DNA from: Candidatus Uhrbacteria bacterium
GTDB lineage: Bacteria; Patescibacteriota; Patescibacteriia; GWA2-47-26
Direction: 5' to 3'
Length of the DNA stretch: 40,181 nt
Assembly: GCA_016187515.1 (NCBI GenBank)
Contig: JACPJN010000004.1
Coordinates: 1-40,181, forward strand
Shown here: positions 3,351 to 39,891 of the stretch, one piece after another
How the letters are laid out: each line of letters starts with the position of its first letter
Position numbering within the stretch: position 1 is the first letter of the stretch
The notes under the pieces: model-generated
What the model saw: only the letters and a program-made list of their open reading frames with translations
Databases searched by the model: none
What the model was told of the DNA's origin: nothing
Made by a program: the position numbers and the translations under genes

Positions 3351-3450
3351 AGCGGGATACCAGAATCTCCGCCCACTTGTCCGCCTTTGGCGGGAGGCGG
3401 ATCAGCCTTCGGCTGAGAACCCAGATGGCGCCTCTTGCTTGCCCTGTAGT
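3351..3450 (-). pseudogene. Degenerate partial tRNA-Gly copy interrupted by a short palindromic insert
   Basis: agcgggataccagaatc and tggcgc(c)tcttgcttg match the intact tRNA-Gly at 3536-3606, separated by about 55 nt containing hairpin-forming sequence. Confidence 0.5.
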
Positions 3451-10995: not shown

Positions 10996-11259
10996 TTAGG
11001 CAATATAGAGTGCGTACACAGTAATTACTACAATCGTATCCCTCTCCACAACAAATACTGGGTTCACTTGTTTTATCTTGTAAAATTTCTTATTCCATTC
11101 TGCATTATACTGAAAATCCTGCTTTGCTTCAAATCGGCCACTCCTCGCTTCACGCCATTCTGCAAGCCGAATCGTTTCTACTACTTCATTTTCATTGGCT
11201 CCCCTTTTCCGCATACTATCCTGTGCACGCGGCGAAAATTCAATGGGAAGATTCTTCAT
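10996..11259 (-). CDS. DUF4258/BrnT-like small protein
   Basis: EFSPRAQDSMRKRGANENEVVETIRLAEWREAR...NPVFVVERDTIVVITVYALY; adjacent to DUF2283 gene. Confidence 0.75.
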   Translation of the reverse strand: MKNLPIEFSPRAQDSMRKRGANENEVVETIRLAEWREARSGRFEAKQDFQYNAEWNKKFYKIKQVNPVFVVERDTIVVITVYALYIA

Positions 11260-23878: not shown

Positions 23879-24224
23879 AGAGCAGCAGTATGGCTTGGAG
23901 CAAAAGTAGCAGCGCCGCGATCAGCGCCCCGGCCAGCATCAGCTGCCCAAGATACGGGTCGCGTCGAACCAGAATCCGGGCCAGCAGGCCATTGACTCCC
24001 AGGATTATCGAACTGGCCAAGGGAATGAGATATACCAAATACCAAGCCCCGATGAAATCAACTCCAAACGCGGTGGTATAATGTAAAAAAATCGGATCCT
24101 CTTGCGGCGCGATTCCTAGCGCAAGAATTAACAATTGTCCAAAAATAAGGACGGCCGTAGCAATGGTCAGGTACCGCAAAACCGGATTTTGGTACCAAAA
24201 CCAGCGCTTAATGAAGGAAGTCAT
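23865..24224 (-). CDS. Small polytopic membrane protein
   Basis: Hydrophobic C-terminal part of a longer ORF; plausible start MTSFIKRWFWYQNPVLRYL; upstream extension is antisense to ALDH gene and past its terminator. Confidence 0.6.
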   Translation of the reverse strand: MTSFIKRWFWYQNPVLRYLTIATAVLIFGQLLILALGIAPQEDPIFLHYTTAFGVDFIGAWYLVYLIPLASSIILGVNGLLARILVRRDPYLGQLMLAGALIAALLLLLQAILLLYVNS

Positions 24225-24266
24225 AGTTAAGGATATAGTATAGCACAACCAAATAAAATAATAAAG

Positions 24267-24308
24267 GCCATCTGACCGCCCGTCGCAAGCGACGGGAAGC
24301 CAGATGGC
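24267..24308 (-). terminator. Hairpin terminator downstream of ALDH gene
   Basis: gccatctgaccgcccgtcgcaagcgacgggaagccagatggc followed on minus strand by CTTTATTATTTTATTT. Confidence 0.75.
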
Positions 24309-24352
24309 ACACCTCCTAACACACTCTCTACACACTCTACGGATCTTCTCCG

Positions 24353-26773
24353 CTAGGCCGCGTGCGCGAACCAGATGTTCTTCTGCTGGGTGGCGTGGTC
24401 CAGGAACATGGTGGACTCGCCTTCCGGACCGACCCAGTTCAGCAGCCGTCCGTAGCTCACGAGCGTCCGCTTCATGTTGCAGACCGAAGCGGCCTCCACC
24501 TTGCGGCTGGCTTCGGCTCCTCCGAAGCACCAGACCGCGTCCACGTCTTCGTGGCTCGCGAACATCTCCACGATCGCGTCCGGATTCTTGGCCGTCAGGA
24601 TGTTCACGACCCCGGCCGGCACGTCCGAGTTCTGGATGATCTCGACCAGATCCATGGCCGAGAACGCGCACTTCCCCGCGACGATGACGACGGCGTTTCC
24701 CATCGCGATCGCGGAGGCCATGGTGGAGACAAGCCCCAGAAGCGGATACTCGTCCGGCGCGCGAATGCCGATCACCCCTACGCTCTCGTTCAACGCCACG
24801 ACGTGCATGCCCTTGACGCTGACTTGCGGGGTCTGGCCTTCGAACTTGTCGGCCCAGCCGCCCCAGTGGAACAGGCGTTCGGAGGTCGCGTTCACTTCGG
24901 CACGCGCCGAGTCCATGCTCCGTCCGGTCTGCGCCGCGATGGTTATCGCAAGCGCTTCCTTGCGCCGCATGACCTTCTCGGCCATGAAGTACAAGATCTG
25001 CGCGCGTCCGTGAGCGGTCTGTCCAGCCCACGACTCTGCCGCGCCTCGCGCCGCTCGGACTGCGTTCCTGACGTCCTTGCGGTTGGCGTCGCCCACGATC
25101 CCCACGATGTTGCCGTGCGGATCGCGAACACGAATGCTTGCGGCGCCGTCCGGACGCACGAGCTTGCCGCCCACGAGGAACCGATGCGTCTCGTCAAGCG
25201 CGTCAGTGTCCGTCAACACGAGTTGCGGATGCGCGCGCTTACCGCGCTTGGCCATCGGCTCCGGAGTCGGCGGATCAAACTTCTCAACCGTGAGGTCCAG
25301 GATGTTGCGGATTCCGCCTTCGCGTCCGTAGCCGCTCTCGCGATAGCCGCCGAATCCGGAGGCCGGGTCGAACAGTTGCGTGCAGTTGACCCAGACCGTG
25401 CCGGCCTTGATCTTCGCGGCGGTCCAGTGCGCGAGTCCGATGTTCTGCGTCCACACGCTCGCCGCGAGTCCGTAGCGCGTGTTGTTGGCGAGCATGGCGG
25501 CTTCGGAGGGAGTCCGGAACGTCATTACTATCAGCACCGGGCCGAACACTTCCTCGCGCACGATCGTGTGCGAGGTATTGACCTTCGTGCAGAGCGTCGG
25601 CGCGTAGTGGTAGCCCTGCGGGGGGCAGACCCATCCATCCGGTTGCCAGACGTCTCCGCCTTCCGCGGTGCACTGGGCCACGAGTCCGGCGATCTTGTCG
25701 CGTTGGGCCGCGGAGTTGACCGCGCCCGTGTCGTAGGCCTTGTCGAGCGACTTGCCGCCGCGCAGCTTGCTCATCCGCGCCTTGAGGCGGGCGATGAGTT
25801 CGTCCGCAATGCTCTCGTGTACGAGCAAACGCGAACCGGCACAGCAGACCTGTCCGTTGTTGAATCCGAGCACTCCGTCGACCGCGCCCTCGACCACCGC
25901 GTCGAGATCCGCGTCCGCGTAGACCACCATCGGCGACTTGCCCCCGAGCTCGAGGGTCAAGAGCTTGCCAGAACCGGCCGTGGCCAAACGGATGTCGCGG
26001 CCGGCCCGGGTTGAGCCGGTAAACGCGACCTTTTTCGGGGTCTGGTGCCGGACCATCAGCTGGCCGGTCTGGAGGTCGCCGAACACGAAGTTCACGACGC
26101 CCTTGGGAAGCTTGACCTCTTCCATCAGCAGCTCGGCCAGGTACAGCGCGGAAAGCGGGGTGTACTCGGAGGTCTTCAAGACCACCGTGTTTCCCGCGGC
26201 GATCGCGGCCGCGACTTTCCAGGCGATCATGAGCAGCGGGAAATTCCACGGCACAATCTGGCAGATGACGCCGACCGGCTGGCGATTCGGGTACGCCTGC
26301 AGCATGATCTTGGCCCAGCCGGCGAAGTAGTAGAACCAGCGGATGACGCCGGGCACGTCGATGTCGCGGGTTTCGCGGATCGGCTTGCCGTTGTCCAGGG
26401 ACTCGAGGACCGCGAGGATGCGCGCGTGCTTGGCGATCGTACGCGCGATCGCGTACAAGTACCTCGCCCGGACGAAACCGGAAAGCGCGCTCCAGAGGCC
26501 GAAGGCCTTCTGCGCCGCGGCCATGGCTTGGTCGACATGCGCCTGCGTTCCGACCGCGACTTGCGCGAACGTCTCGCCCGTTTCCGGGTTCGACGTCGTG
26601 AAGTAGCGCTTGGCCCGTGTGCGTCCGCCAGTTGCGGGACAAACCCACGCGCCGTTGATGAAGTGGCCGAACCTGGCGCCGTGGAGCTTGAGCCAGGCGC
26701 GCGCGTCCTTGTCGGACTCGGGCGCCGGACTGTAGTCGAGGGGTTCCTCGACTCGTTCTGCGTTTGCGTTCAT
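24353..26773 (-). CDS. ALDH16-like aldehyde dehydrogenase (full ALDH domain plus truncated second ALDH domain)
   Basis: Domain 1 has LTLELGGKSPMVVYADADLD and NNGQVCCAGSR; domain 2 repeats the NAD-binding half and lacks the ELGGK/GQxC catalytic motifs. Confidence 0.85.
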   Translation of the reverse strand: MNANAERVEEPLDYSPAPESDKDARAWLKLHGARFGHFINGAWVCPATGGRTRAKRYFTTSNPETGETFAQVAVGTQAHVDQAMAAAQKAFGLWSALSGFVRARYLYAIARTIAKHARILAVLESLDNGKPIRETRDIDVPGVIRWFYYFAGWAKIMLQAYPNRQPVGVICQIVPWNFPLLMIAWKVAAAIAAGNTVVLKTSEYTPLSALYLAELLMEEVKLPKGVVNFVFGDLQTGQLMVRHQTPKKVAFTGSTRAGRDIRLATAGSGKLLTLELGGKSPMVVYADADLDAVVEGAVDGVLGFNNGQVCCAGSRLLVHESIADELIARLKARMSKLRGGKSLDKAYDTGAVNSAAQRDKIAGLVAQCTAEGGDVWQPDGWVCPPQGYHYAPTLCTKVNTSHTIVREEVFGPVLIVMTFRTPSEAAMLANNTRYGLAASVWTQNIGLAHWTAAKIKAGTVWVNCTQLFDPASGFGGYRESGYGREGGIRNILDLTVEKFDPPTPEPMAKRGKRAHPQLVLTDTDALDETHRFLVGGKLVRPDGAASIRVRDPHGNIVGIVGDANRKDVRNAVRAARGAAESWAGQTAHGRAQILYFMAEKVMRRKEALAITIAAQTGRSMDSARAEVNATSERLFHWGGWADKFEGQTPQVSVKGMHVVALNESVGVIGIRAPDEYPLLGLVSTMASAIAMGNAVVIVAGKCAFSAMDLVEIIQNSDVPAGVVNILTAKNPDAIVEMFASHEDVDAVWCFGGAEASRKVEAASVCNMKRTLVSYGRLLNWVGPEGESTMFLDHATQQKNIWFAHAA

Positions 26774-26785
26774 GTTCGTTCTCCT

Positions 26786-27748
26786 TTACGCGACTGCGAA
26801 ACGGCTCTCGGCGCCGTAGCGGCCGAAGGCCTGGTGGTTGAGTTGCAGTTCAAGGTCCGCCAAGAGCGAACTGGCCCCGAGCCGGAGCAATTCCGGTTGG
26901 GTCCACTCGTCTCCGAGCTCCTCCTTCATGAGGATGAAATACTTCCAGGCGTCCGCGGCGGTCTTGATCCCGCCAGCCGGCTTGAAGCCGACCTTGATCT
27001 TGGTCAGATCGTGGAAACGCCGGATCATGCGCACCATCACGAGCGCGCCTTCGGGAGTCGCGTTCGTGGGTTCGTAGCCGGTCGAGGTCTTGATCGTGTC
27101 GGCCCCGGCCAGCATCGCGACCATGGCGGCTTTCGCGACGGTCTCGAGACGTCCGAGGTTGCCGATTCCGAGGATGACCTTAAGCTTGGCGCGCTCGCCG
27201 CATGCCGCGCGGCACGCGACGACCTCGTCGTAGAGTTCGCGCCAGCGTTCCGTGAGCGCGAGCGCGCGGCTGATCACGATGTCGATCTCGGTTGCGCCGT
27301 CGCCGATTGAAAGCTCGATCTCCTTGAGCTTGGTCTCGAGCGGAGTTTGTCCGGCCGGGAAGCCGGTGGACACCGCTGCGACCGGGATGTTGCTACCGGC
27401 GAGGTACGCGGCCGCATCGGCGACCATCTTGTGGTACACGCAGACCGCGCCGACGCAAATCGGCGTGGTAGGCAGATCGAACTTCGCGACGAGTGCCGTC
27501 TGAAGATCCAGGTCAACCGGCCGGCGCGCCTTGGCGCACAGCCGATCGACCCGACCGAGCGTGTCATCGCCTGCGAGCGTCGTGAGATCCATGCAGCGGA
27601 TCGCGCGAATCGTTGCGGCCACCTGCGAGGCGCCCTTGAACGTGCGCCGGGTTCCGATCTCGGAGGCACGCCTTTGCGCGGCCCACGGATCGACCCGGAT
27701 GGACTCGATGAGTCCGGAATCGAACGGAAGCGGTTTGTTGGTAGGCAT
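26786..27748 (-). CDS. deoC: Deoxyribose-phosphate aldolase
   Basis: ATEIDIVISRALALTERWRELYDEVVACRAACGE-KLKVILGIGNL...AGADTIKTSTGYEPTNATPEGALVM...KVGFKPAGGIKTAADAW; SD GGAGG before MPTNK. Confidence 0.93.
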   Translation of the reverse strand: MPTNKPLPFDSGLIESIRVDPWAAQRRASEIGTRRTFKGASQVAATIRAIRCMDLTTLAGDDTLGRVDRLCAKARRPVDLDLQTALVAKFDLPTTPICVGAVCVYHKMVADAAAYLAGSNIPVAAVSTGFPAGQTPLETKLKEIELSIGDGATEIDIVISRALALTERWRELYDEVVACRAACGERAKLKVILGIGNLGRLETVAKAAMVAMLAGADTIKTSTGYEPTNATPEGALVMVRMIRRFHDLTKIKVGFKPAGGIKTAADAWKYFILMKEELGDEWTQPELLRLGASSLLADLELQLNHQAFGRYGAESRFAVA

Positions 27749-27806
27749 CGCTACTATCCCTCCTTGTTGGGTTGTCAGGGTACAACTCTGCCTTTTAGGC
27801 ATGATT

Positions 27807-27837
27807 GTTATACCGAACTCCTTGATATTTGTCAAAT
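27807..27837 (-). promoter_or_regulatory. Promoter/operator of deoC-aldh unit
   Basis: Minus strand TTGACA-N17-TATAAC; dyad TTTGACaaatatTCAAG overlaps the -35 region. Confidence 0.6.
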
Positions 27838-27857
27838 CTTGGCTTTAAATACAAAAC

Positions 27858-27889
27858 GCTGCCAACGCGTAGACGTCTACGTTGGCAGC
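27858..27889 (-). terminator. Hairpin terminator downstream of acs
   Basis: gctgccaacgcgtagacgtctacgttggcagc followed on minus strand by gttttgtattt. Confidence 0.65.
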
Positions 27890-27935
27890 AGGATTCCTCC
27901 ATGTCGTATGTGCTCGAAGAACTTTTGTTGCAGAA

Positions 27936-29870
27936 TCAGACGCGCACGGCCTCGATGAGCGCCGCAACCGCGGCCGGATCCTCAAGCGTAGTCACGTCGC
28001 CAAGCTCTCGGCCCTCGGCCACGTCGCGCAGGAGCCGGCGCATGATCTTGCCTGAACGGGTCTTCGGGAGCGCCGGGGTGAACCGGATCTGCTTGAGGTT
28101 GGCGTGCGGACCGATGATCTTGCGCACGAGTTGGTTGATCTCGTCTGCGAGCCCGGGCGATCCCTCGTGTCCGGCCTTGAGGATCACGAACGCGCAGATC
28201 GCCTGGCCAGTGATGTCGTCTGCGATGCCCACGACTGCCGCTTCCGCTACTGCCGGGTGCGCGCCGATCGCGCCTTCCACCTCGGCCGTGCCGATGTTGT
28301 GTCCGGACACGATCATGATGTCATCCACTCGTCCGGTGATCCAGTAGTAGCCATCGGGGTCGCGCCGACACCCGTCGCCAGTCAAGTAGTAACCCGGGAA
28401 CGGCTGGAGGTATGTCTGTAGGAAGCGGGCGCGGTCGCCCCAGATGTCGCGCAGCATGCCGGGCCACGAAGCCGCGATCGCCAGCAGTCCAGTCGCTTTC
28501 GGATCGCCCAATTCGTTTCCCGCCTCGTCCAGCACTACGGCACGTACGCCCGGGAGCGGAAACGTGGCGGAGCCGGGTTTGGTCGGCGTGGCTCCCGGAA
28601 GCGGCGAGATCAGGATCCCGCCGGTCTCGGTTTGCCACCAAGTGTCCACGATCGGACAGCGCCCCTCGCCCACGACCGCGCGATACCACTCCCATTCCGG
28701 CGCTTTGATCGGCTCGCCCACGGTCCCGAGAATCCGGAGCGTGGAGCGGTCGTGGCCGATAACGAACGCGTCTCCTTTGGCACGCAGCGCGCGCAGTGCA
28801 GTCGGCGCGGTGTAGAAGATGTTGACGCGATGTTTCGCGACGATCTGCCAGAAGCGTCCGAAATCCGGATAGCTCGGCACGCCCTCGTACATGAGGACCG
28901 TCGCGCGATTGGCAAGCGGACCGTAGACCACGTAGCTGTGTCCGGTGATCCAGCCGCAATCCGCGGTACACCAGAACACTTCACCCGGTCGGTAGTCGAA
29001 CACCAGCTCGTGGGTGTAGGCGGCGTAGGTGAGGTACCCGCCGGTCGTGTGCACGACGCCCTTGGGTTTACCGGTCGAACCGCTCGTGTACAGGATGAAG
29101 AGCGGTTGTTCGGCATCCATCGGTTCGGGCGGACACGTCGCCGAAGCGGCGGCCAGCAAACCTTCCCACGACAAGTCGCGTTCGGGCTGCATCGGAACAT
29201 CTGCGCCCGTGTGCTTGACCACGAGCACATGCTCGATCGAAGGCGTCTCCGCACATGCCGCATCCGCGCTTTGCTTCATGGTGACGCTCTTGTTTCCACG
29301 CCACCCGGCATCCTGGGTGATGAGCACCTTGGCGCCGCAGTCGTTGATGCGATCGCGCAGTGCGCTAGCCGAGAACGCGCCGAACACGACCGAGTGGATC
29401 GCGCCGATTCGCGCACACGCCAGCATCGCGATCGCGAGCTCCGGAATCATCTGCAAGTAAATGCAGACGCGATCGCCCTTGCCGACCCCGAGCGCCTTGA
29501 GCACGTTTGCCGCGCGCTCGACCCGGTCGAGAAGTTGCAGATAGGTCAGCCGCCTCGGCGCATCTTTCGGATCGTTCGGCTCCCAGATGATCGCGACTTC
29601 GTCTCCGTGACCGGCGGCGACGTGGCGATCGAGGCAGTTGAACGAGGCGTTGAGCGTGCCGTCTTCGAACCATCTGATGTTGCCGTCACGAAGAGATCCG
29701 GAAAAACCCTTGGTCGGCGGCTGGTACCAGGTCAGTAGGCGTCGGGCCTGGCTGACCCAGAAGCCGTCCGGGTCGGCAAGCGCCTGCTGATACAGCGCTT
29801 GGTAGGCCTCCCCGCTGACCACGTGGTGGGCCGAAAACGCGGGCGGAACTGCGCAAGTTTTTTCACTCAT
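27936..29870 (-). CDS. acs: Acetyl-CoA synthetase (AMP-forming)
   Basis: LFILYTSGSTGKPKGVVHTTGGYL, VDTWWQTETGGILISP, YLTGDGCRRDPDGYYWITGRVDD, LPKTRSGKIMRRLLR. Confidence 0.96.
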   Translation of the reverse strand: MSEKTCAVPPAFSAHHVVSGEAYQALYQQALADPDGFWVSQARRLLTWYQPPTKGFSGSLRDGNIRWFEDGTLNASFNCLDRHVAAGHGDEVAIIWEPNDPKDAPRRLTYLQLLDRVERAANVLKALGVGKGDRVCIYLQMIPELAIAMLACARIGAIHSVVFGAFSASALRDRINDCGAKVLITQDAGWRGNKSVTMKQSADAACAETPSIEHVLVVKHTGADVPMQPERDLSWEGLLAAASATCPPEPMDAEQPLFILYTSGSTGKPKGVVHTTGGYLTYAAYTHELVFDYRPGEVFWCTADCGWITGHSYVVYGPLANRATVLMYEGVPSYPDFGRFWQIVAKHRVNIFYTAPTALRALRAKGDAFVIGHDRSTLRILGTVGEPIKAPEWEWYRAVVGEGRCPIVDTWWQTETGGILISPLPGATPTKPGSATFPLPGVRAVVLDEAGNELGDPKATGLLAIAASWPGMLRDIWGDRARFLQTYLQPFPGYYLTGDGCRRDPDGYYWITGRVDDIMIVSGHNIGTAEVEGAIGAHPAVAEAAVVGIADDITGQAICAFVILKAGHEGSPGLADEINQLVRKIIGPHANLKQIRFTPALPKTRSGKIMRRLLRDVAEGRELGDVTTLEDPAAVAALIEAVRV

Positions 29871-29889
29871 AGAACACCTCCTACCGGAC

Positions 29890-29919
29890 ATTATAACAAA
29901 CCACTTGACAGAAGTCAAA
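29890..29919 (-). promoter_or_regulatory. Promoter/operator of acs
   Basis: Minus strand TTGACT-N17-TATAAT with TTTGACttctGTCAAG dyad over the -35 box. Confidence 0.65.
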
Positions 29920-29941
29920 CCCTATGATAAAGTGAAATTCC

Positions 29942-30062
29942 AAATCCCAAGCACCAAATCACAAAGAAACCACAAACTCCAAGTCCCAAATTACAAAATG
30001 CTTGTGCTTCGGCCATTGAGATTTCGAATTTGTTTGTAATTTGAGATTTGTAATTTGTAATT
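29942..30062. repeat. Short-period AT-rich repeats in inverted arrangement upstream of rpmA
   Basis: ccaaatcccaagcaccaaatcac...ccaagtcccaaattacaaaa and ...gatttcgaatttgtttgtaatttgagatttgtaatttgtaattta. Confidence 0.6.
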
Positions 30063-31156: not shown

Positions 31157-32455
31157 CTAATCCGCTCCGGAAAGCAGAATCTCCTGCGGATGACCATTGG
31201 CGTCCCTGCCATTGAGACGAACTTCAATCCACTCATCACCCTGCAGCCAATAGTCATACTTATCAAGGCAGAGATGCGGGACCGTTTTCCCGGAAAGATT
31301 ATGAAGGGTAAATAAACGGCCGAGTTTTGCCTGATCAGCAGGTGACCACGAGCTGTTTCCGGCAAGCGGGAGGGCGAGCGGTTCTTCCCTAAACACATGC
31401 GGCGCGCGTTTCTTCACTTCAGCCAAGGATTCACCTGTTGAATCCATGCGCCATATTTTTACTTCCATTCCTGAAAACAGCACATCAACTCCTGCCAGCT
31501 CCTGAAGCACCACAGTGAAGAAACAATTGTATGCGGTATTAAACTGGTAGTCCTTGGCAAACACTACCTGCGCCTTCGGCTCCGGCTCCGGTGGCAGAGG
31601 CGCCGCAGGCGACGTGTACACTGCCGGCTGAAGCGAAGCAGTGAGGGTCTGGGTTCCCATGGCCTGGACTTCGGCGCGTCTCTCATTTTCCCGCGCCCTG
31701 GCCGTGACCTCGACTACCAAGTGCCGCAAGGACTCCACCTGGCCCGTACATTCTTTCTTTCCTGTTTGCGCTTCGGTAAGCTGGGCCATCAACTGCGTCA
31801 CTTCCTCGCGACACTGCGTGGTCTGCTTAACGTGCAGATCGCGCTCCTCCTGCGTACTGGCCTGTAGCGCCTGCGCCGAGGCCATACACTGCTCCAATTC
31901 CTGCTGGCGCTGCGCCGCTGACTCGCTGGCCGTTTGCGCGGCCTCGCGCGCAGCCGTACCCTCCTTGCCCAACCGATCCATCTCCTTGCCGCACGCCTTC
32001 TGCTGTTCACCCAGGAGCGCGACCCCCTGTTGCAACTCCCCCTTGAGCGTGCGGATCTGCTCCTTCTTCTGCGCGACCTGGGTCTTCTGCGCCTTGATCT
32101 GCTCCTGCATCTCGTTCGCCTGCTTACGCGCCGGCGCCGTGGTCATGCCCCACATCACGAAGTAGTACAGGATAAAGACCGCGACGATCCCGGCGAAAGC
32201 GAGGATCTTCTTGTTGAGCAAACTCCACCCGAGCATGTACTTGGTGATCAGCCAAGCCGCGAGAAACCCGAACGTCAGCGTGATGGCCTTGGCTAAGTAG
32301 GGATTGACTCCGGCGCTTTCCGGCACCCCGAAATACCGGCCCATCAAGGCGGTAGTGAGCGGAAGCGCCAACAGCATCAGGATGTACCCGATCGTTACCG
32401 CCAGTGCGGCAACCCCGACGATCTTCGTAGCATTCTGGGCCAAACCTTTGAACAT
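31157..32455 (-). CDS. Membrane protein paralogue A: N-terminal TM module, long coiled coil, C-terminal beta-rich domain
   Basis: MFKGLAQNATKIVG... nearly the same N-terminal module as the 32927-33766 gene; C-terminal region different. Confidence 0.75.
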   Translation of the reverse strand: MFKGLAQNATKIVGVAALAVTIGYILMLLALPLTTALMGRYFGVPESAGVNPYLAKAITLTFGFLAAWLITKYMLGWSLLNKKILAFAGIVAVFILYYFVMWGMTTAPARKQANEMQEQIKAQKTQVAQKKEQIRTLKGELQQGVALLGEQQKACGKEMDRLGKEGTAAREAAQTASESAAQRQQELEQCMASAQALQASTQEERDLHVKQTTQCREEVTQLMAQLTEAQTGKKECTGQVESLRHLVVEVTARARENERRAEVQAMGTQTLTASLQPAVYTSPAAPLPPEPEPKAQVVFAKDYQFNTAYNCFFTVVLQELAGVDVLFSGMEVKIWRMDSTGESLAEVKKRAPHVFREEPLALPLAGNSSWSPADQAKLGRLFTLHNLSGKTVPHLCLDKYDYWLQGDEWIEVRLNGRDANGHPQEILLSGAD

Positions 32456-32589
32456 GGCTTCCTCCATTGTTTGAGGTTTAACTTGTCAACGAACCCCTTA
32501 TCTGCCCACCACGCACAATCGCGTGATGTACAGGTAAAGAGAGTGGAGTGGCACATAGCGGATACGCGCGCCACTCCGCCTAAGGAACA

Positions 32590-32820
32590 CTACTCCTCTT
32601 CCTGCATGAGACGAGCGACTTCCTGCATGTCCTGCCCGACCTTACAGAATTGCTGCTCGGCTTCACGGAAATGCTGTCCGGCCTCACGCACGCCTTTCCC
32701 GAAGTCCTGCAGGCCACGCCCGAGGTAGCGCAATACACGCAAAACAAGGAATGCCTGAATCACGAACGCAATGCTAAAGCCCACGATGATGCCCATGAAA
32801 AAATGCGCGATGTTGGTCAT
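32590..32820 (-). CDS. Small membrane protein with amphipathic C-terminal helix
   Basis: MTNIAHFFMGIIVGFSIAFVIQAFLVLRVLRYLGRGLQDFGKGVREAG...; AAAAGGAG SD upstream. Confidence 0.6.
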   Translation of the reverse strand: MTNIAHFFMGIIVGFSIAFVIQAFLVLRVLRYLGRGLQDFGKGVREAGQHFREAEQQFCKVGQDMQEVARLMQEEE

Positions 32821-32874
32821 GGTGTACTCCTTTTAATTGATTGCGTTTTGAGGTCGGAGTTGTCAACAAATCTA

Positions 32875-32926
32875 CTTGTCCGGCGCGTTGAGCTAAAGGA
32901 GCAATCGTCGCGTGGTTGCCGGCCTT
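32875..32926 (-). pseudogene. Decayed duplicate of the 3' end of the vWA gene
   Basis: Minus strand reads PATTRRLLL*LNAPDK* against PATTRRLLLQLKAPDK* at the end of the 33935-34849 gene. Confidence 0.75.
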
Positions 32927-33766
32927 TCACCAATTGAGAAAGCACAACACCACTGCAACGGCGATCACCAAAATCGCGAGAATCAAAATCGCACAGAAAA
33001 ATTGATGAGGTCCGCATGTGGCGAGTACTAGCAACACCACAACAGCGCAAAGTAGAATCGCATAGCAGAGATTCTTCAATATGTCCAAGTGCTCAACGTC
33101 ACCGGCATAGCTGAATCCCGGCCACTCAATCCTACGCATACATGGATCACCTTTCCAATTCGCGTAAGAAACTAAGAGCGTCAAATTATACGCCACCCAC
33201 GGAACACCAAAAAACCAAAGGAAAAATACCGCCCCGATGGCAAGAATCACCCACAATGCAGTGCCAACCCAACTCGGCAACGCCGACATCACCGAAGCAG
33301 GATTTTCTTCAGTGTGTCTACTAGAAACATCCTCCCTCTGAATCTTATCACCCCGTTCTTCCTCCTGCTCCTGCGCGTCTTTTTCCCTAAGTTGCGCGAT
33401 CTGGGCCTGCTGGGCCTTGATCTGCTCCTGCAGCTCGCGCGCCTGCTTGCGCGGCTCCGCCGTGGTCATGCCCCACATCATGAAGTAGTACACGATCCAC
33501 ACCCCGACAATCCCGGCAAAGGCGAGGATTTTTTTGTTCAGCAGGTTCCACCCGAGCATGTACTTGGTGATCAACCAAGCCGCGAGAAATCCAAACGTCA
33601 GCTTGATGACCTTGGCCAGGTAGGGATTGATTCCGGCGCTTTCCGGGACCTGAAACTGCCCGCTCACTCCGAACATCGTAGCTGGAAGAAACAGCAACAT
33701 CAGGGTGTACCCGATCATTGCCGCCAGTGCGGCAAACCCGACGATCTTCGTAGCATTCTGGGCCAA
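32927..33766 (-). CDS. Membrane protein paralogue B: same N-terminal TM module, short coiled coil, different C-terminal TM domain
   Basis: MFKGLAQNATKIVGFAALAAMIGYTLMLL... LTFGFLAAWLITKYMLGWNLLNKKILAFAGIV. Confidence 0.75.
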   Translation of the reverse strand: MAQNATKIVGFAALAAMIGYTLMLLFLPATMFGVSGQFQVPESAGINPYLAKVIKLTFGFLAAWLITKYMLGWNLLNKKILAFAGIVGVWIVYYFMMWGMTTAEPRKQARELQEQIKAQQAQIAQLREKDAQEQEEERGDKIQREDVSSRHTEENPASVMSALPSWVGTALWVILAIGAVFFLWFFGVPWVAYNLTLLVSYANWKGDPCMRRIEWPGFSYAGDVEHLDILKNLCYAILLCAVVVLLVLATCGPHQFFCAILILAILVIAVAVVLCFLNW

Positions 33767-33934
33767 ACCTTTGAACATGGCTTCCTCTGTTGCTTGAGGT
33801 TTGAATTGTCAACGAACCCCTTCATCTGCCCACCACGCACAATCGCGTGATGTGTAAGTAAAGAGAGTGGAGTGGAAACGCGGAGTAGCACCCGAAAGGG
33901 TGTACCCTCGCGCCCCACTCCGCTTGCGCCGCAA

Positions 33935-34849
33935 CTACTTATCCGGCGCCTTAAGCTGAAGGAGCAATCGCCGCGTAGTAGCCGGCAAGGCCATCTGCTT
34001 CCCAACCTGCGCGATAAAGGAATCCAGCCGACCGGTTTCCTTCATGCAAATTCCCAGAAGTACGTCCACCAGCGCGTCCAGCTCCGCAAGCTCCAGGTAC
34101 TTGCCGCCATGCTCACGCGCGAGCCACTGGTAGTAATCCTGAATCTTTTGCTTGCGCGGCGAGGTGCGTTCGCTCTCTTGCGAGCAAAACACGCTGTAGA
34201 AAGCAAAACCCTTTTTCGCAAGGTCGGCCACTTCCGCGCGGTAGTCATACTCGTGCGGACAACCACTCACGCGATCCAACACGCCATGAGGCGGCATGTC
34301 GCCGACGACCACTCCCACGCGCTTGGCCTTGCCACCGACGACACTGCGCGCCTGCGCGTTCAAGTGATGAAACGCATCCTCCACCGCGCAAAGTCCATCC
34401 CCTCCTCCGCCGGGCCGCACTTCCGCAAGCGTCTTGCGAATCATTTCCGGATCAGCCGTCAAGGGCTGATGCAGAAACGGATACACGCCGTGGAAGTGCT
34501 GGGCCTCGTCGCCGTGATTCTTGTACGCGTAGACTGCGAACTGCGCGCGTACCTGCTCCTGCGCGATGCGCTTCGCAATCGCCACGATTGAGTCGCGCAC
34601 CCGCGCGAAATACGGGTACATGCTCCCGGTGGTATCGCAGAAAAACACAACTTCCAGATCTCCACTGCTGATTCGACTCGGGACCGCCTGGCGACGCGCC
34701 AGCGCGCTGATCCGCCCGGCAAGCGAAAAGGGCGTAAGCGATACATTGCTCCCACCCCTCCTAACCTCCCCTCGGGCAGGGGAGGAGATTGTTTCAGCCC
34801 TTCCCCTTTCAAGCGTACCGGCGCGTTCATCCTTTTTGATTTCGCTCAT
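33935..34849 (-). CDS. vWA-domain protein (TerY-like general type)
   Basis: LEVVFFCDTTGSMYPYFARVRDSIVAIAKRI (MIDAS-like DxTxS), later VGVVVGDMPPHG. Confidence 0.75.
   Translation of the reverse strand: MSEIKKDERAGTLERGRAETISSPARGEVRRGGSNVSLTPFSLAGRISALARRQAVPSRISSGDLEVVFFCDTTGSMYPYFARVRDSIVAIAKRIAQEQVRAQFAVYAYKNHGDEAQHFHGVYPFLHQPLTADPEMIRKTLAEVRPGGGGDGLCAVEDAFHHLNAQARSVVGGKAKRVGVVVGDMPPHGVLDRVSGCPHEYDYRAEVADLAKKGFAFYSVFCSQESERTSPRKQKIQDYYQWLAREHGGKYLELAELDALVDVLLGICMKETGRLDSFIAQVGKQMALPATTRRLLLQLKAPDK
34751..34791. repeat. GC-rich hairpin repeat inserted in frame near the vWA N-terminus
   Basis: cccacccctcctaacctcccctcgggcaggggaggagattg; encodes ISSPARGEVRRGG. Confidence 0.8.
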
Positions 34850-34866
34850 GGGCTTTTCTCCTTGGT

Positions 34867-35556
34867 CTATGCTCCGACGCACGCGCGCAGGAGCTGTCGT
34901 GTTTGCAAAAGTTCAAGCGTGAGGCGCCGCATCAGCTCCGGATTCAGAAATGATGACTCCATCTGCTCATACCCTTGCACCTTGTATGCCAGCTCTTGAA
35001 GCGCTTGCGCCAGCGCCTCGTCCTGGCAGGTCTGCATCGCGCGAGCCAGCAACTCTTGCACCTCGCGCAACAAATCATCCAGTGCAAACAGCGCCTGCTC
35101 GCTCTCTTGGAATCGCACCGCAACGAGCGCCATCTTCTCACGCAGTGCGTCAAGGGACTGTGCCGTTGCCACTTGGTACATCGCGCGAAGCAGGTGCAAC
35201 TCTGAGGTCAGTTCGCCAAGCGCTGGCAAAAGATACGCGCGCTTACCGTTCTGAACGCGCTGTGCTACCCGCGTACGCGCCTCTTCAAGATTGAGGAGTG
35301 CGCTGTCAATTTTCCGCCGCTCCTCTACCGCCGCGATTACTGGAATCACGGCCGCGATGCCGACCGTACCGGCGACTGCCGAACCAAGCTTGGAACCCAT
35401 GACCAACCGTGCCGACACGAAATTGGAGAAATCCATAAGATCATGAGTGACGCCCCGAAAATCGCCCCAACGAAGATGGGAAATTCGTGATGCCACCCAA
35501 AAAGTGATGCCTGCGCCTGCAAAAATCGCCAAAACAAGAATGAGGAAGATCGGCAT
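34867..35556 (-). CDS. Membrane-anchored helical protein of unknown function
   Basis: MPIFLILVLAIFAGAGITFWV TM segment then helical cytoplasmic-type region; start at internal Met downstream of ggagg. Confidence 0.65.
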   Translation of the reverse strand: MPIFLILVLAIFAGAGITFWVASRISHLRWGDFRGVTHDLMDFSNFVSARLVMGSKLGSAVAGTVGIAAVIPVIAAVEERRKIDSALLNLEEARTRVAQRVQNGKRAYLLPALGELTSELHLLRAMYQVATAQSLDALREKMALVAVRFQESEQALFALDDLLREVQELLARAMQTCQDEALAQALQELAYKVQGYEQMESSFLNPELMRRLTLELLQTRQLLRACVGA

Positions 35557-35724
35557 GGGAGGAAACCTCCGTGTTTGAGTTTTCAAAGTGCGTGGACTTC
35601 CGCCCACCCGGTCCCTTGCCAATAAGCAAGAGACAGGATGAAAGAAGGAGGATGGCTGGCGATTCCATCCTCGTAAGAATAGTGTGATCTCGACTTGCCG
35701 CATGCGGCCATGCGCCTGCTCAAC

Positions 35725-35964
35725 CTACTCGATCTTGAAGCCGAGAAGTTGAAGGAACGACTTGCCGCGCTTGCCAAGCTCGTCCATCCTGGGATCGTTG
35801 ACGATGCCATCCGCCAGCTCCGCCAGAGTACGAGCTTCAGCGGCCACCTGCTTGATGCGCTCCCGCACACCGGCGATTCCTTGCGGGGGAGACGAAGCGC
35901 TGGCAGGCGAGGCCGGCGCTACCTGGGGAGTCGTGCCGCTTGCCGGCGTCTTGGTGGCGGCCAT
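35725..35964 (-). CDS. Small hypothetical protein
   Basis: 79-aa ORF, Ala/Pro/Ser-rich N-terminus; consistent spacing with neighbours in a polycistron. Confidence 0.5.
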   Translation of the reverse strand: MAATKTPASGTTPQVAPASPASASSPPQGIAGVRERIKQVAAEARTLAELADGIVNDPRMDELGKRGKSFLQLLGFKIE

Positions 35965-35967
35965 GGG

Positions 35968-36219
35968 CTACCTCCGACCGCTACCGGCCGCTTCCTTGGC
36001 CTCGCTACGCTTGTTGAACGCCCACTTGATGCCGAGCGCCGCCAAAAGCATGCCGAGAAACAGGACCAGTCCATTCACAAAGCTCTGCCAGGTCAGCTCC
36101 GGGGCGGGCTGGTTCGCCTCCTTGGCTTCCTTGGATGCCTTGCGATGAAGGACGACCCTCCAGATCGCGAGGCCGAGCAGGATGGCAACGATGCTGCTGA
36201 AAAGGACGACGAGGAACAT
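35968..36219 (-). CDS. Small membrane protein (two TM segments)
   Basis: MFLVVLFSSIVAILLGLAIWRVVLHRK ... FVNGLVLFLGMLLAALGIKWAF; AAAGGAG SD upstream. Confidence 0.6.
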   Translation of the reverse strand: MFLVVLFSSIVAILLGLAIWRVVLHRKASKEAKEANQPAPELTWQSFVNGLVLFLGMLLAALGIKWAFNKRSEAKEAAGSGRR

Positions 36220-36343
36220 GGCGTTTCTCCTTTTGTATGTATTGGAGGGGTATCCCTCTCACCGCGTCCTGCGGGATTGCAAGGCGCGGAGTAAAGGGGC
36301 GGAAGGGCGGCGGCGTTTTGCCACCCTTCCGCAAGGTGCGTGC

Positions 36344-36523
36344 CTACCGGAAGCCAAGGAAGAAGCCAACGTCGGTCATGCGCCGCCGCTCTGCTTCCAT
36401 TCGCCGCAGATATTCCTGCCAACGACGTTGTTCCTCGAAAAAATGATCCATGCTGCATCCAGGGCACACGCTTCCCGTGTAGTAGCCATGCTTGTAGCAG
36501 TGGGGGCGAAAATCGAACTTCAT
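36344..36523 (-). CDS. Small (59 aa) His/Cys-rich zinc-binding-type protein
   Basis: MKFDFRPHCYKHGYYTGSVCPGCSMDHFFEEQRRWQEYLRRMEAERRR. Confidence 0.55.
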   Translation of the reverse strand: MKFDFRPHCYKHGYYTGSVCPGCSMDHFFEEQRRWQEYLRRMEAERRRMTDVGFFLGFR

Positions 36524-36574
36524 GATTTTTTCCTCGCGGCTTTTCAAGGTTCCGCACAGCGATGTGCTATGCGC

Positions 36575-36627
36575 TATCCCCATTTTGCCATACCCCAAAA
36601 AGAAAACTACTGAAAAAGTGGAGAAAA
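36575..36627 (-). promoter_or_regulatory. Upstream repeat element, copy A
   Basis: ctatccccattttgccataccccaaaaagaaaactactgaaaaagtggagaaaa. Confidence 0.7.
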
Positions 36628-36636
36628 TCTCTATGA

Positions 36637-37131
36637 TTACCCTCCGCCGGTCTGCTCGCGCAAGCGCTCAATCAGCTCCGCGACGGAGATGATTTCGCAG
36701 GCATCGCACATGCCGTTAATCACCGTCAGACATTCATTCATGTAATTCAGCAAATCTCGCATCACCCCCATAAAATGCTCCGGGTCAAACTTGTTCTGAA
36801 ACTCCAGCCAACGCTGAAAGCAAAGTTCTCCATCGCTATCAAGTGCGCACGATACTGTCGCGCCGCTGTTCATAACCAACAAATCACGCATAACTCGGCT
36901 ATGCCGCTTGTGGTCAACAAGATGACAGCCGACAGACGCCGTAATGCAAATCATCGCTGATCTCGCGGAGGTCTTCAGCGTAATCATAATTTGCACAGTG
37001 CCGTGCGCGGCTTTTACGCCAAATGCAACCATTCTCCCCTGAACCAGATGATAGTTCACGCTGATGTCATCCAAGACCTGCGTAATGTCGGTTATACTGA
37101 CGCGCGCTGCCGATGATGCAATTTTCATCAT
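36637..37131 (-). CDS. Hypothetical protein, YbjN-like impression
   Basis: MMKIASSAARVSITDITQVLDDISVNYHLVQG... start preceded by GGGAG; HFMGVMRDLLNYMNECLTVING. Confidence 0.55.
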   Translation of the reverse strand: MMKIASSAARVSITDITQVLDDISVNYHLVQGRMVAFGVKAAHGTVQIMITLKTSARSAMICITASVGCHLVDHKRHSRVMRDLLVMNSGATVSCALDSDGELCFQRWLEFQNKFDPEHFMGVMRDLLNYMNECLTVINGMCDACEIISVAELIERLREQTGGG

Positions 37132-37187
37132 GGATCTCCCACGTGTCAATCGTGTCAATGAGCACGCGCCACGAAATTGTGATGCGT

Positions 37188-37240
37188 TATCCACATTTTG
37201 CCATACCACCAAAAGAAAACTACTGAAAAAGCGGAGAAAA
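37188..37240 (-). promoter_or_regulatory. Upstream repeat element, copy B
   Basis: ttatccacattttgccataccaccaaaagaaaactactgaaaaagcggagaaaa. Confidence 0.7.
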
Positions 37241-37283
37241 CCAGCCGGACCTTGCTTGAGAGCAAAATTAGGTAAACAAAAAA

Positions 37284-37306
37284 GGCCAACCAATTGCTGG
37301 TTAGCC
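37284..37306 (-). terminator. Terminator downstream of the Ntn-hydrolase-like gene
   Basis: Minus strand ggctaaccagcaattggttggccTTTTTTGTTT. Confidence 0.7.
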
Positions 37307-37341
37307 ATGAGGCGGGCGAGGAGTTTTGTCGCGCCACCCCT

Positions 37342-38466
37342 TTAGAAATTGTCCTCCAGGCTGCGGAAAACGAATCCTTCGGTATCAGTAATGGTGGCGA
37401 AGTAGATATCGCCGCCAACCGTGGGAATGGAATCTTTGAGGTACTCATGGACTCGCGCAGTTGTCTCAATCAGGAACTGAATAATCTTCAACAATTCCCG
37501 TAGCGACATGTACTGCATATGATTGACTGTCTTGCCTGCCTTGATCTGCCTCGTTAGCACCCCTGAGCTAACCTGCTCCAAAAGTTTAATGTAATGGGGC
37601 AAAGGCAGGGTATCTTTGTCACGATCATACGCGGAACGAAACGGCTCCTTTGAAAGCAAGGTTTCGCAATCCTCTTGCACGGGCGGTAGACGGCGGATAA
37701 CGGTTGCCTTTGCCGCATTAACCAAGCGTTTATCCAAGCTATCCAGACCCAGCACATGTTGGACCACCATATCTGCGAATGCGCACACATGCCCTGCGAT
37801 AAGACGGTCGGTTTTGACGCTAGTGCCAGTCAACAAGGTGTCGGCAATCTCAGCATCGCCAGCCGTGGCGATGAGGTTATTAGCCCTATCGCTGACTTCA
37901 AACACGACTGCGCACTTTCCCTTTTCGTCGGCTTTGTCCACTCGGAAAGTGGCAACACACACTTCGTACTGCCTATCCACTGCGCAATAACCAGCATAGA
38001 GGAATTCAGCAACCATCAACCCGAATTCCACTTTAGCCAACTCGTCAGCCAACTGCTGGTTAAGTAAGTTGATATAAGCCTTGAAAGTAAGCGGTTTGTT
38101 GCCGCTTTTCGCCATGATGACTTCCTGACCGGCAGGAGATTCCACTGCGTCAATGATTTTATCTTGCAGGTGTGCGATAAAATCACTACCGGTTTTGATC
38201 CTTGCGCCGTATGGCCGTCCATTGATGTAGTACATCGGCCGCACCTTGCTGGATCTGAAGTTGTTTACCGCCATCGACTGAACACTGGCTTGAATCTTGT
38301 CCAATAGCCCTTGTAGCTGTTCTTCTTGGGTGGCTGACAGCCAATCTACATCCACAAGCATTTTGAGGAGCTGTTGAGGATCCAACATGGGACGCGAGCT
38401 TGTGACCAAGCTGTCAGCGCCTAGGGCAATGCCGGAGTGAGCACGAAGAATAATGCCTAGCGACAT
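37342..38466 (-). CDS. Putative proteasome-like (Ntn-hydrolase fold) protein
   Basis: N-terminus MSLGIILRAHSGIALGADSLVTSS resembles proteasome-type Gx(V/I)xLxADSxxT; C-terminus TVGGDIYFATITDTEGFVFRS resembles VGGxIdvaxI; SD AAGGAGG upstream. Confidence 0.5.
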   Translation of the reverse strand: MSLGIILRAHSGIALGADSLVTSSRPMLDPQQLLKMLVDVDWLSATQEEQLQGLLDKIQASVQSMAVNNFRSSKVRPMYYINGRPYGARIKTGSDFIAHLQDKIIDAVESPAGQEVIMAKSGNKPLTFKAYINLLNQQLADELAKVEFGLMVAEFLYAGYCAVDRQYEVCVATFRVDKADEKGKCAVVFEVSDRANNLIATAGDAEIADTLLTGTSVKTDRLIAGHVCAFADMVVQHVLGLDSLDKRLVNAAKATVIRRLPPVQEDCETLLSKEPFRSAYDRDKDTLPLPHYIKLLEQVSSGVLTRQIKAGKTVNHMQYMSLRELLKIIQFLIETTARVHEYLKDSIPTVGGDIYFATITDTEGFVFRSLEDNF

Positions 38467-38645: not shown

Positions 38646-38972
38646 TCAAACCCGCACCCCAATCAGAAATGTACATCCTTTTGGACCGATTTTGGCGCTG
38701 TGGAAAACATGCTTTGGCACATCAAAACGCTCGCCTTCGTTAAACACCTGCGATCGCCCGTTCATTTCAACGACCATTGAACCAATAAACACCGCATACG
38801 CAGTATCAATCGGATGTTCATGCTCGGCATAACAATACCCGGGCTGATCCGTATGCACCCAGTTTTGCTCATAACCATCCTTCACAAAAACCTTTTGCCA
38901 TTTTTCAATGTCGGATTTGATTTTTGTACGCATACGACCAACAAAACCGATGCGCCGATAAACGGCCATCAT
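38646..38972 (-). CDS. Cupin-domain protein
   Basis: HTDQPGYCYAEHEHPIDTAYAVFIGSMVVEMNGRSQVFNEGERFDVPKHVFHSAKIGPKGCTFLIG; alternative start at 38933 (MRTKIKSD). Confidence 0.8.
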   Translation of the reverse strand: MMAVYRRIGFVGRMRTKIKSDIEKWQKVFVKDGYEQNWVHTDQPGYCYAEHEHPIDTAYAVFIGSMVVEMNGRSQVFNEGERFDVPKHVFHSAKIGPKGCTFLIGVRV

Positions 38973-38987
38973 GACACCTAATTAATC

Positions 38988-39041
38988 TTATCCCCATTTT
39001 CTCACTTGGCAAAAAGAAAACTACTGAAAAAGTGGAGAAAA
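38988..39041 (-). promoter_or_regulatory. Upstream repeat element, copy C
   Basis: ttatccccattttctcacttggcaaaaagaaaactactgaaaaagtggagaaaa. Confidence 0.7.
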
Positions 39042-39239: not shown

Positions 39240-39695
39240 TTACGCTTCTTCTCTGTACAAATTCGATATTCTTAAAACCACGTCTTCATCGTTCCTCGAA
39301 AACATGCTCCTACGCTTGGCCTCTTCAAAAATAATCATAAATCTATCAAATACTCCTTCACGCCCAAGCACTCGCGGCGCACGCGCGCTATCAAGAAACG
39401 CTACGGGAAGACGGCAGGTTTCTTGACCAATGCGTACCGTAATCTCGTGCCGCCATCCTCGCAGCAGTCCATTCCCGATACCGGCGATCGCCATGGGTAT
39501 GCCTTGCTCCGCATCAATTCCCAACATGGGAGCGTCGCTTTTGGGAAGTGCGGAGACAGTGGCGCCAGAATCCAAAATCAAAAATAGGGAGATGGACTCC
39601 CCGTCTTTGGTGGAAAATGAGATCTCCGCAGCCGGAAATAAGGCAATCTTGCCGTCTTCATGCAGTGTAATTCCGTACGGGAATATCTGCGACAT
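39240..39695 (-). CDS. Retropepsin-like aspartic protease
   Basis: SLFLILDSGATVSALPKSDAPMLG (DSGA active-site motif) and RVLGREGVFDRFMIIFEEAKRRSMF. Confidence 0.75.
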   Translation of the reverse strand: MSQIFPYGITLHEDGKIALFPAAEISFSTKDGESISLFLILDSGATVSALPKSDAPMLGIDAEQGIPMAIAGIGNGLLRGWRHEITVRIGQETCRLPVAFLDSARAPRVLGREGVFDRFMIIFEEAKRRSMFSRNDEDVVLRISNLYREEA

Positions 39696-39891
39696 AATAA
39701 ATCACTGATAATGTGGACGGAACAGAAAAAATCTTAATTTCCGCTAGGGGGATTTTTGGAGCGAGCGTACGCGCTTCTTTGATAACTTCATCGAGCGTAT
39801 CTCCCGTTGCAATAATTTCACCCGCCACAATAGCGACTTGCTTTCCGCCATATTTACGGATGTCAATTGTTGGCATCACATCTAAGTTCAT
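39658..39891 (-). CDS. DUF5678-like small protein
   Basis: IRKYGGKQVAIVAGEIIATGDTLDEVIKEARTLAPKIPLAEIKIFSVP; overlaps downstream protease gene. Confidence 0.65.
   Translation of the reverse strand: MNLDVMPTIDIRKYGGKQVAIVAGEIIATGDTLDEVIKEARTLAPKIPLAEIKIFSVPSTLSVIYYVADIPVRNYTA

Follow-up and report, generated by a model that had tools for sequence, protein, structure and literature searches.

A conserved vWA gene cluster with a membrane J-protein partner and a promoter-like element in Patescibacteria

What, if anything, joins a compact run of largely unannotated genes around a vWA protein in a Candidatus Uhrbacteria genome? The window analysed here is a complete contig of 40,181 bp from a 1.2-Mb genome rated 100% complete, and ten clear minus-strand genes, spaced by 3–210 nt, occupy its positions 31157–38466 in the list of open reading frames. 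A sequence-only reading had counted eleven such genes; ten stand, and the eleventh, a cupin-like gene, lies just outside, at 38646–38972. The same reading regarded the combination as unnamed and likely to form a complex, which agrees with our results: a conserved pair of genes lies within it, and no description of the combination was found in the literature outside subscription journals. Apart from one vWA match below threshold, profile libraries including Pfam and PADLOC returned no family for any of the ten genes. Unrelated genes that simply share a direction might look like this, given that Pfam covers no component besides vWA and J; conserved adjacency, co-occurrence and a shared sequence element, described below, speak against it. 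We give this account almost no weight: it is refuted for the core, and may still hold for the genes of 79 and 76 codons. The cluster is a real, conserved, unnamed and apparently co-regulated system.

The vWA protein and its membrane J partner

The vWA protein (304 aa, ATG start; 33935–34849, minus strand) contains in order DTTGSM, the motif already pointed out from the sequence alone, GGGGDG and GDMPPHG. Its residues fit a metal site of the MIDAS type (D-x-S/T-x-S and one further Asp), and the D, T and S of DTTGSM, together with the later GDMPPHG, are invariant across eight orthologues. Its Pfam scores fall just short of the cut-offs (23.6 bits versus 27 for VWA_4 and 19.8 versus 23.8 for VWA), and the proteins of relatives match VWA with E values as good as 8.6e-7. 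Scanning GTDB contigs for this protein gave two relatives, L007 in Candidatus Magasanikbacteria and L008 (the same as G489) in the same phylum, and six more (G081, G114, G174, G187, G203 and G233) came from searching the window's class, 381 genomes in all, with a profile. Orthologues are 34–55% identical over seven aligned genomes; the G203 reading frame is broken in the assembly.

Immediately upstream of the vWA gene is one for a TM-anchored helical protein (34867–35556, minus strand; phmmer E 2.9e-17 to the L007 protein), which belongs to a family that we call TM-J. The sequence-only reading had staked its case on the conservation of neighbouring genes in other genomes, and such conservation was found: the two genes adjoin in all nine loci, and in each of the eight others the TM-J gene directly precedes the vWA gene. 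This vWA/J core is present in 7 of the 381 genomes of the class, and in G174 and G233 the core locus consists of these two genes alone. Eight of the nine family members carry a J domain (PF00226, best E 8e-24), which is C-terminal and has YHPD in every case. The window copy is the exception, with no HPD-containing J domain; it ends at the expected start of the J linker, 17 nt short of the vWA start codon, and the loss is a clean absence and not a frameshift. A hydropathy/positive-inside script, ambiguous for the window protein and for one J protein, predicted a cytoplasmic C terminus for most of the single-TM J proteins. J proteins of the DjlA type likewise have an N-terminal TM anchor and a C-terminal cytoplasmic J domain. 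The TM-J proteins share that layout and differ in that a vWA gene is always adjacent; their helical middle shares no Pfam family.

J domains stimulate Hsp70. Because all eight relatives have, in the homologue of the TM-helical protein, a J domain whose HPD is intact, the cluster's absent ATPase partner is, on this comparison, most likely DnaK/Hsp70. No dnaK gene occurs in any of the clusters examined. Nor does a MoxR AAA+ gene adjoin the vWA gene in the neighbourhoods searched with a P-loop pattern; P-loop genes farther off encode only apparently housekeeping ATPases (FtsH, MutS, AtpD, FtsK-like or pilus-type). The earlier remark that no MoxR/AAA+ partner is visible is therefore right in that the cluster encodes no AAA+ protein, but it missed the key partner, to which the J domain of relatives points and which lay beyond the view that this window affords. 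The sole J domain of the window genome is that of a canonical DnaJ. Given that the J domain of the cluster is gone in this genome, coupling to DnaK would have been lost or would be supplied by this lone DnaJ.

Related but distinct vWA genes were also seen, next to a J-kinase fusion (L030), a J protein and an OmpA-like gene (L031) or a kinase-like gene (L032). Because L030 and L031 place a related vWA gene beside J proteins, the vWA–J pairing recurs in these genomes.

A promoter-like element and the genes it precedes

Comparison of the window with itself brought up a repeated intergenic sequence, a 25-nt element of the form TTTTCTCC(A/G)CTTTTTCAGTAGTTTTC with three copies, all on the minus strand. 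The first (36602–36627) lies upstream of the main operon, the second (37215–37240) upstream of a gene for a 164-aa protein and the third (39016–39041) upstream of the cupin-like gene. No other site with up to two mismatches to the element core was found in the 1.2-Mb genome. Outside this genome the core was found in L008, at 550 (exact) and at 3428 (one mismatch), in L007 at 7314 (one mismatch) and in L022/G114 at 11089 (two mismatches). Each of these sites is intergenic and precedes a cluster gene on its coding strand; shuffles gave expected core matches of 0.00, 0.04 and 0.08. An alignment of the seven sites revealed a −10-like AWWAT about 15 nt downstream. Exact TTTCNNNNNNNTTTCARTANNTTTC occurs at ten sites in the 381 genomes, namely three in the window genome, two in G114 and five singletons in genomes that lack the vWA/J core, and its reversed control occurs at four. 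Against a background of 5 in 381, at least three sites in one genome has a P of about 4e-7 and at least two a P of about 9e-5, values to be read with the pattern having been derived from these very sites. No enrichment of the element was found at the core loci of the f9/f58 genomes. These patterns suggest that the cluster is apparently co-regulated through a dedicated promoter-like element. The sequence-only reading had overlooked both the shared element and the cupin gene, outside its coordinates, that carries a copy.

The first gene of the main operon encodes a Cys/His mini-protein (36344–36523, minus strand) with the C-terminal sequence DVGFFLGFR. It matches weakly (E 0.006–0.009) a counterpart in G114 that ends in DDGFFMGFR and is encoded upstream of the G114 TM-J gene. 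The 164-aa protein (36637–37131, minus strand) had been labelled YbjN-like, a label that stays unproven, the protein having no match to the YbjN family profile or to any other in Pfam; the gene is tied to the system by the promoter element alone, in the window genome. The cupin-like protein (minus strand) is so named by motif from its reading frame and also has no Pfam match. Between the TM-helical gene and the mini-protein gene lies, among others, that for a 79-aa small soluble protein (35725–35964, minus strand), placed in the cluster by its reading frame and spacing only.

The Ntn-like protein (374 aa, N terminus MSLGI...GADS; 37342–38466, minus strand), whose gene is followed at its 3′ side by a terminator-like hairpin (37284–37306, minus strand), has a single homologue class-wide (31% identity, E 3e-41). 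This homologue is in G114, which has both the system and the element, 28 kb from the vWA core of that genome. The second element of G114 precedes genes for a 35-aa peptide, a radical SAM protein and a methyltransferase, directly ahead of the Ntn gene. The proposal that the G114 Ntn gene is co-transcribed from the element is weakened, since the gene has its own perfect match to a sigma-70 promoter (TTGACA-16-TATAAT); it is thus linked to the element by neighbourhood only. As far as gene content indicates, the Ntn gene is tied to the system by co-occurrence and lies outside the conserved core; no homologue was found in phages, plasmids or viral contigs. The earlier description of the protein as proteasome-like has a single feature in its favour, a spacing of (M)S-x15-D at the N terminus as in HslV, and found no support in profile comparison (hhalign probability against HslV 0.8%; no match to PF00227), and a structure model built from two sequences was unusable (pLDDT 35). 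A proteasome-like nature is thus unproven from the sequence.

A dedicated element ahead of several units raises the question of whether the cluster is an envelope sensor or stress-signalling device, in which 3-TM proteins would sense the outside, vWA and J proteins would relay the signal and the element would be the output promoter of an autoregulated regulon. The vWA relatives of L030, beside a J-kinase fusion, and of L032, beside a kinase-like gene, would also fit. However, no kinase, sigma factor or DNA-binding regulator was recognised in the cluster or the core loci, and we regard such a device as quite unlikely.

Membrane families that accompany the core

Two proteins of the cluster had been described as paralogues with TM segments and coiled coils, and the DNA confirms this, because their 5′ parts are a 484-bp duplication with 85% DNA identity (70% protein identity over 150 residues). 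Paralogue A (31157–32455, minus strand; phmmer E 7e-20 to L007) has a 3-TM domain with the sequence GVNPYLA, a coiled coil and a C-terminal beta domain, and paralogue B (32927–33778, minus strand), a copy of the 5′ part of A, has the same 3-TM domain, a short coiled coil and additional predicted TM helices. The degree of identity suggests that the duplication inside the locus is fairly recent. A fold search with the model of the A beta domain (pLDDT 67) had no match at E ≤ 0.001, the lowest value being 0.04; ApaG ranked as the most probable fold (TM 0.42), and the model would support at most an Ig/FN3-like sandwich. The small TM proteins named by the earlier reading were also recovered: a 76-aa protein (32590–32820, minus strand) with one predicted TM segment and an amphipathic tail, which has no significant sequence match among the similarly positioned small TM proteins of relatives, and an 83-aa 2-TM protein (35968–36219, minus strand), which weakly matches the 2-TM proteins of relatives (E 0.014–0.02 in a 14-sequence set).

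The 3-TM domain of A and B defines an unrecognised family (motif GxNxYLA, predicted N-in), members of which adjoin the vWA/J core in L007, L008, G114, G187 and G081. Profile comparison joins the window/L007 proteins to the G114/L008 group (hhalign 96.6%, E 4.9e-10) and that group to the G187/G081 proteins (98.7%). At E < 1e-15 the family profile finds 7 of the 381 class genomes, six of them with the vWA/J core. A hypergeometric P of 1.2e-11 for this co-occurrence was set aside as inflated, because seeds overlap; in non-seed genomes only, two of three co-occur (P = 1.3e-4, shared ancestry ignored). The 3-TM genes of G174 and G203 are located away from the core, so that linkage is not the whole of the association. 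G114 has at least six tandem copies of the family, and in G303 the 3-TM and coil proteins occur with no vWA.

The coil proteins carry a 153-residue domain that accompanies the 3-TM family in G081, G114, G174, G187, G203 and G303 and was not found at the window, L007 or L008 loci. It sits behind TM helices or lipoprotein-like signal sequences, once with WD40/PD40-like repeats. Because it is found on both TM proteins and lipoproteins, it is probably extracytoplasmic.

A chaperone-coupled model and its alternatives

Comparative genomics establishes, at the level of gene content and predicted features, that a soluble vWA protein with conserved MIDAS-type residues adjoins a TM-J protein, that both travel with 3-TM and small TM proteins and that four lineages share the element. 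We propose, with a probability of about 50%, that the cluster encodes a dedicated vWA machine, co-regulated and coupled to Hsp70, for assembling or switching a protein complex of the membrane or surface. The TM-J protein would keep the vWA protein on the inner side of the membrane and recruit DnaK. Together, TM-J and vWA would act as an adaptor, bound to the membrane, through which DnaK reaches the 3-TM proteins or the outer partners of these. The vWA metal site would grip a peptide of the 3-TM proteins or of their partners, and ATP hydrolysis by DnaK would power the assembly, disassembly or switching of a complex with outward-facing coiled-coil, beta-sandwich or propeller parts. The window lineage would be a derivative that lost the J domain and kept the vWA residues and the promoter element. 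We rate this mechanism as plausible, at about even odds. Weighing against it are the window copy that lacks a J domain, in a genome whose one J domain is that of canonical DnaJ, the clusters' lack of a dnaK gene, the two-gene core loci of G174 and G233, and the vWA-free set of 3-TM and coil proteins in G303. A narrower version, which we offer tentatively, is a Patescibacteria-specific, Hsp70-driven surface machine in which a J protein tethered to the membrane and a vWA adaptor operate 3-TM paralogues with coiled-coil, beta-sandwich and propeller parts displayed outside the cell, under a dedicated regulon, for example in host-cell contact, with the J domain dropped here.

The usual account of bacterial vWA proteins invokes an AAA+ partner. 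In this system the partner that is conserved is a J protein of the membrane, and Hsp70-coupled vWA systems thereby gain a testable case. The analysis also marks out several unannotated membrane families in Patescibacteria, a group with a poorly known envelope biology, and yields a promoter-like signature with which to look for more members of the regulon.

Known systems offer partial parallels. According to PMC7159879, vWA domains use the metal site to bind peptides and serve MoxR ATPases as co-chaperones. The ternary MoxR–vWA systems covered there resemble our model in that vWA is the proposed peptide-binding co-chaperone of an ATP-driven chaperone and accessory genes vary, but the present cluster is without MoxR/AAA+, and the link to a chaperone (Hsp70) comes through the J domain that a membrane protein carries; that text, as far as available, notes no counterpart of the 3-TM family. 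It also describes GAP1-N2 GTPase systems with HSP70/GrpE and a DnaJ fusion, again Hsp70/J coupling in a modular accessory system, which by this account need a GTPase, whereas here there is neither a GTPase nor an encoded Hsp70.

The cluster could instead be a Patescibacterial version of the FtsZl1–vWA system, a predicted membrane-remodelling system that includes a DnaJ-like Cys domain (PMC2875224). In both, an operon combines a vWA protein that has an intact metal site with numerous TM proteins, some relatives have kinase and OmpA-like genes nearby as in PMC2875224, and L031 brings vWA, a J protein and an OmpA-like gene together. By contrast, tubulin-like FtsZl1 (PF13809) was found in 0 of 13 genomes, with positive controls, the cluster has no GTPase and its core partner is the TM-J protein; we consider this identity very improbable.

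We think it unlikely, too, that the genes form a biological-conflict system, directed at phages or other bacteria, that would be patchy, modular and chaperone-thresholded with fast-changing accessory genes as effectors. The core is patchy (7 of 381 class-mates), its accessory genes vary (LIM/DA1-like peptidase, transglutaminase-like, radical SAM/methyltransferase) and chaperone-based vWA/MoxR and GTPase/HSP70/DnaJ systems of other bacteria are analogous (PMC7159879). Against this, core vWA identity is high across classes, no nuclease, toxin or pore-forming effector was recognisable, PADLOC gave only weak coiled-coil or helical matches and no known defence system, and the core vWA subfamily was absent from the phage records and viral contigs searched. 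The vWA relatives on viral contigs (33 loci, mostly large phages) form a longer sister subfamily of about 360–470 aa; one of these loci, L056, has a J-domain gene within 6 kb.

A GC-rich palindromic repeat within coding sequence

The N-terminus of the window vWA protein (minus-strand gene, 33935-34849) contains an in-frame insertion of a palindromic GC-rich repeat (CCTCCCCTCGGGCAGGGGAGG...) at window positions 34745-34782, and this repeat-derived insert is absent from the other vWA orthologues. The P-type ATPase gene also carries the palindromic repeat in frame (13627-13664). Stretches resembling it were found at four further sites in the genome, with coordinates near 1501 in loci L002-L005. 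By eye, stretches in the MurG-like and Mur-ligase-like ORFs also resemble this repeat.

Genes accompanying the core and the Ntn gene

A protein of about 616 amino acids is encoded near the core (the TM-J and vWA gene pair) in two lineages, at L007:5395-7248 (Candidatus Magasanikbacteria) and L039:7690-9540 (genome G114), and the two proteins resemble each other by eye. G114 also encodes a protein in which Pfam LIM and DA1-like peptidase domains both score above cut-offs (L022:5940-6818) and a second such protein that resembles it by eye (L039:4928-5809); plants are the best-known source of this family. Three mini-proteins with DnaJ-type CxxCxGxG repeats (L039:6819-7543) share the neighbourhood of the TM-J/vWA operon. 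Elsewhere in G114, adjoining the Ntn gene and preceded by the 25-nt promoter-like element, an operon for a 35-aa basic peptide, a radical SAM protein and a methyltransferase (L076:7320-10760) looks like a modified-peptide (RiPP-like) operon.

Related vWA genes outside the core set

In genome G352, consecutive genes for a J-domain protein, a vWA protein, a membrane protein and an OmpA-like protein (L031:2093-6581) form a vWA-J system distinct from the window-type core. A longer sister subfamily of the window vWA is common on phage contigs in IMG/VR (L041-L073), many of which are 150-470 kb.

Surroundings of the cluster

Window positions 24000-30000, which hold genes resembling those for acetyl-CoA synthetase, aldehyde dehydrogenase and DeoC, form a block of 62-65% GC, compared with about 45-59% across the rest of the contig, and are likely to be acquired DNA. 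At 39240-39891, a short way upstream of the cluster, a retropepsin-like aspartyl protease gene overlaps a DUF5678 gene.
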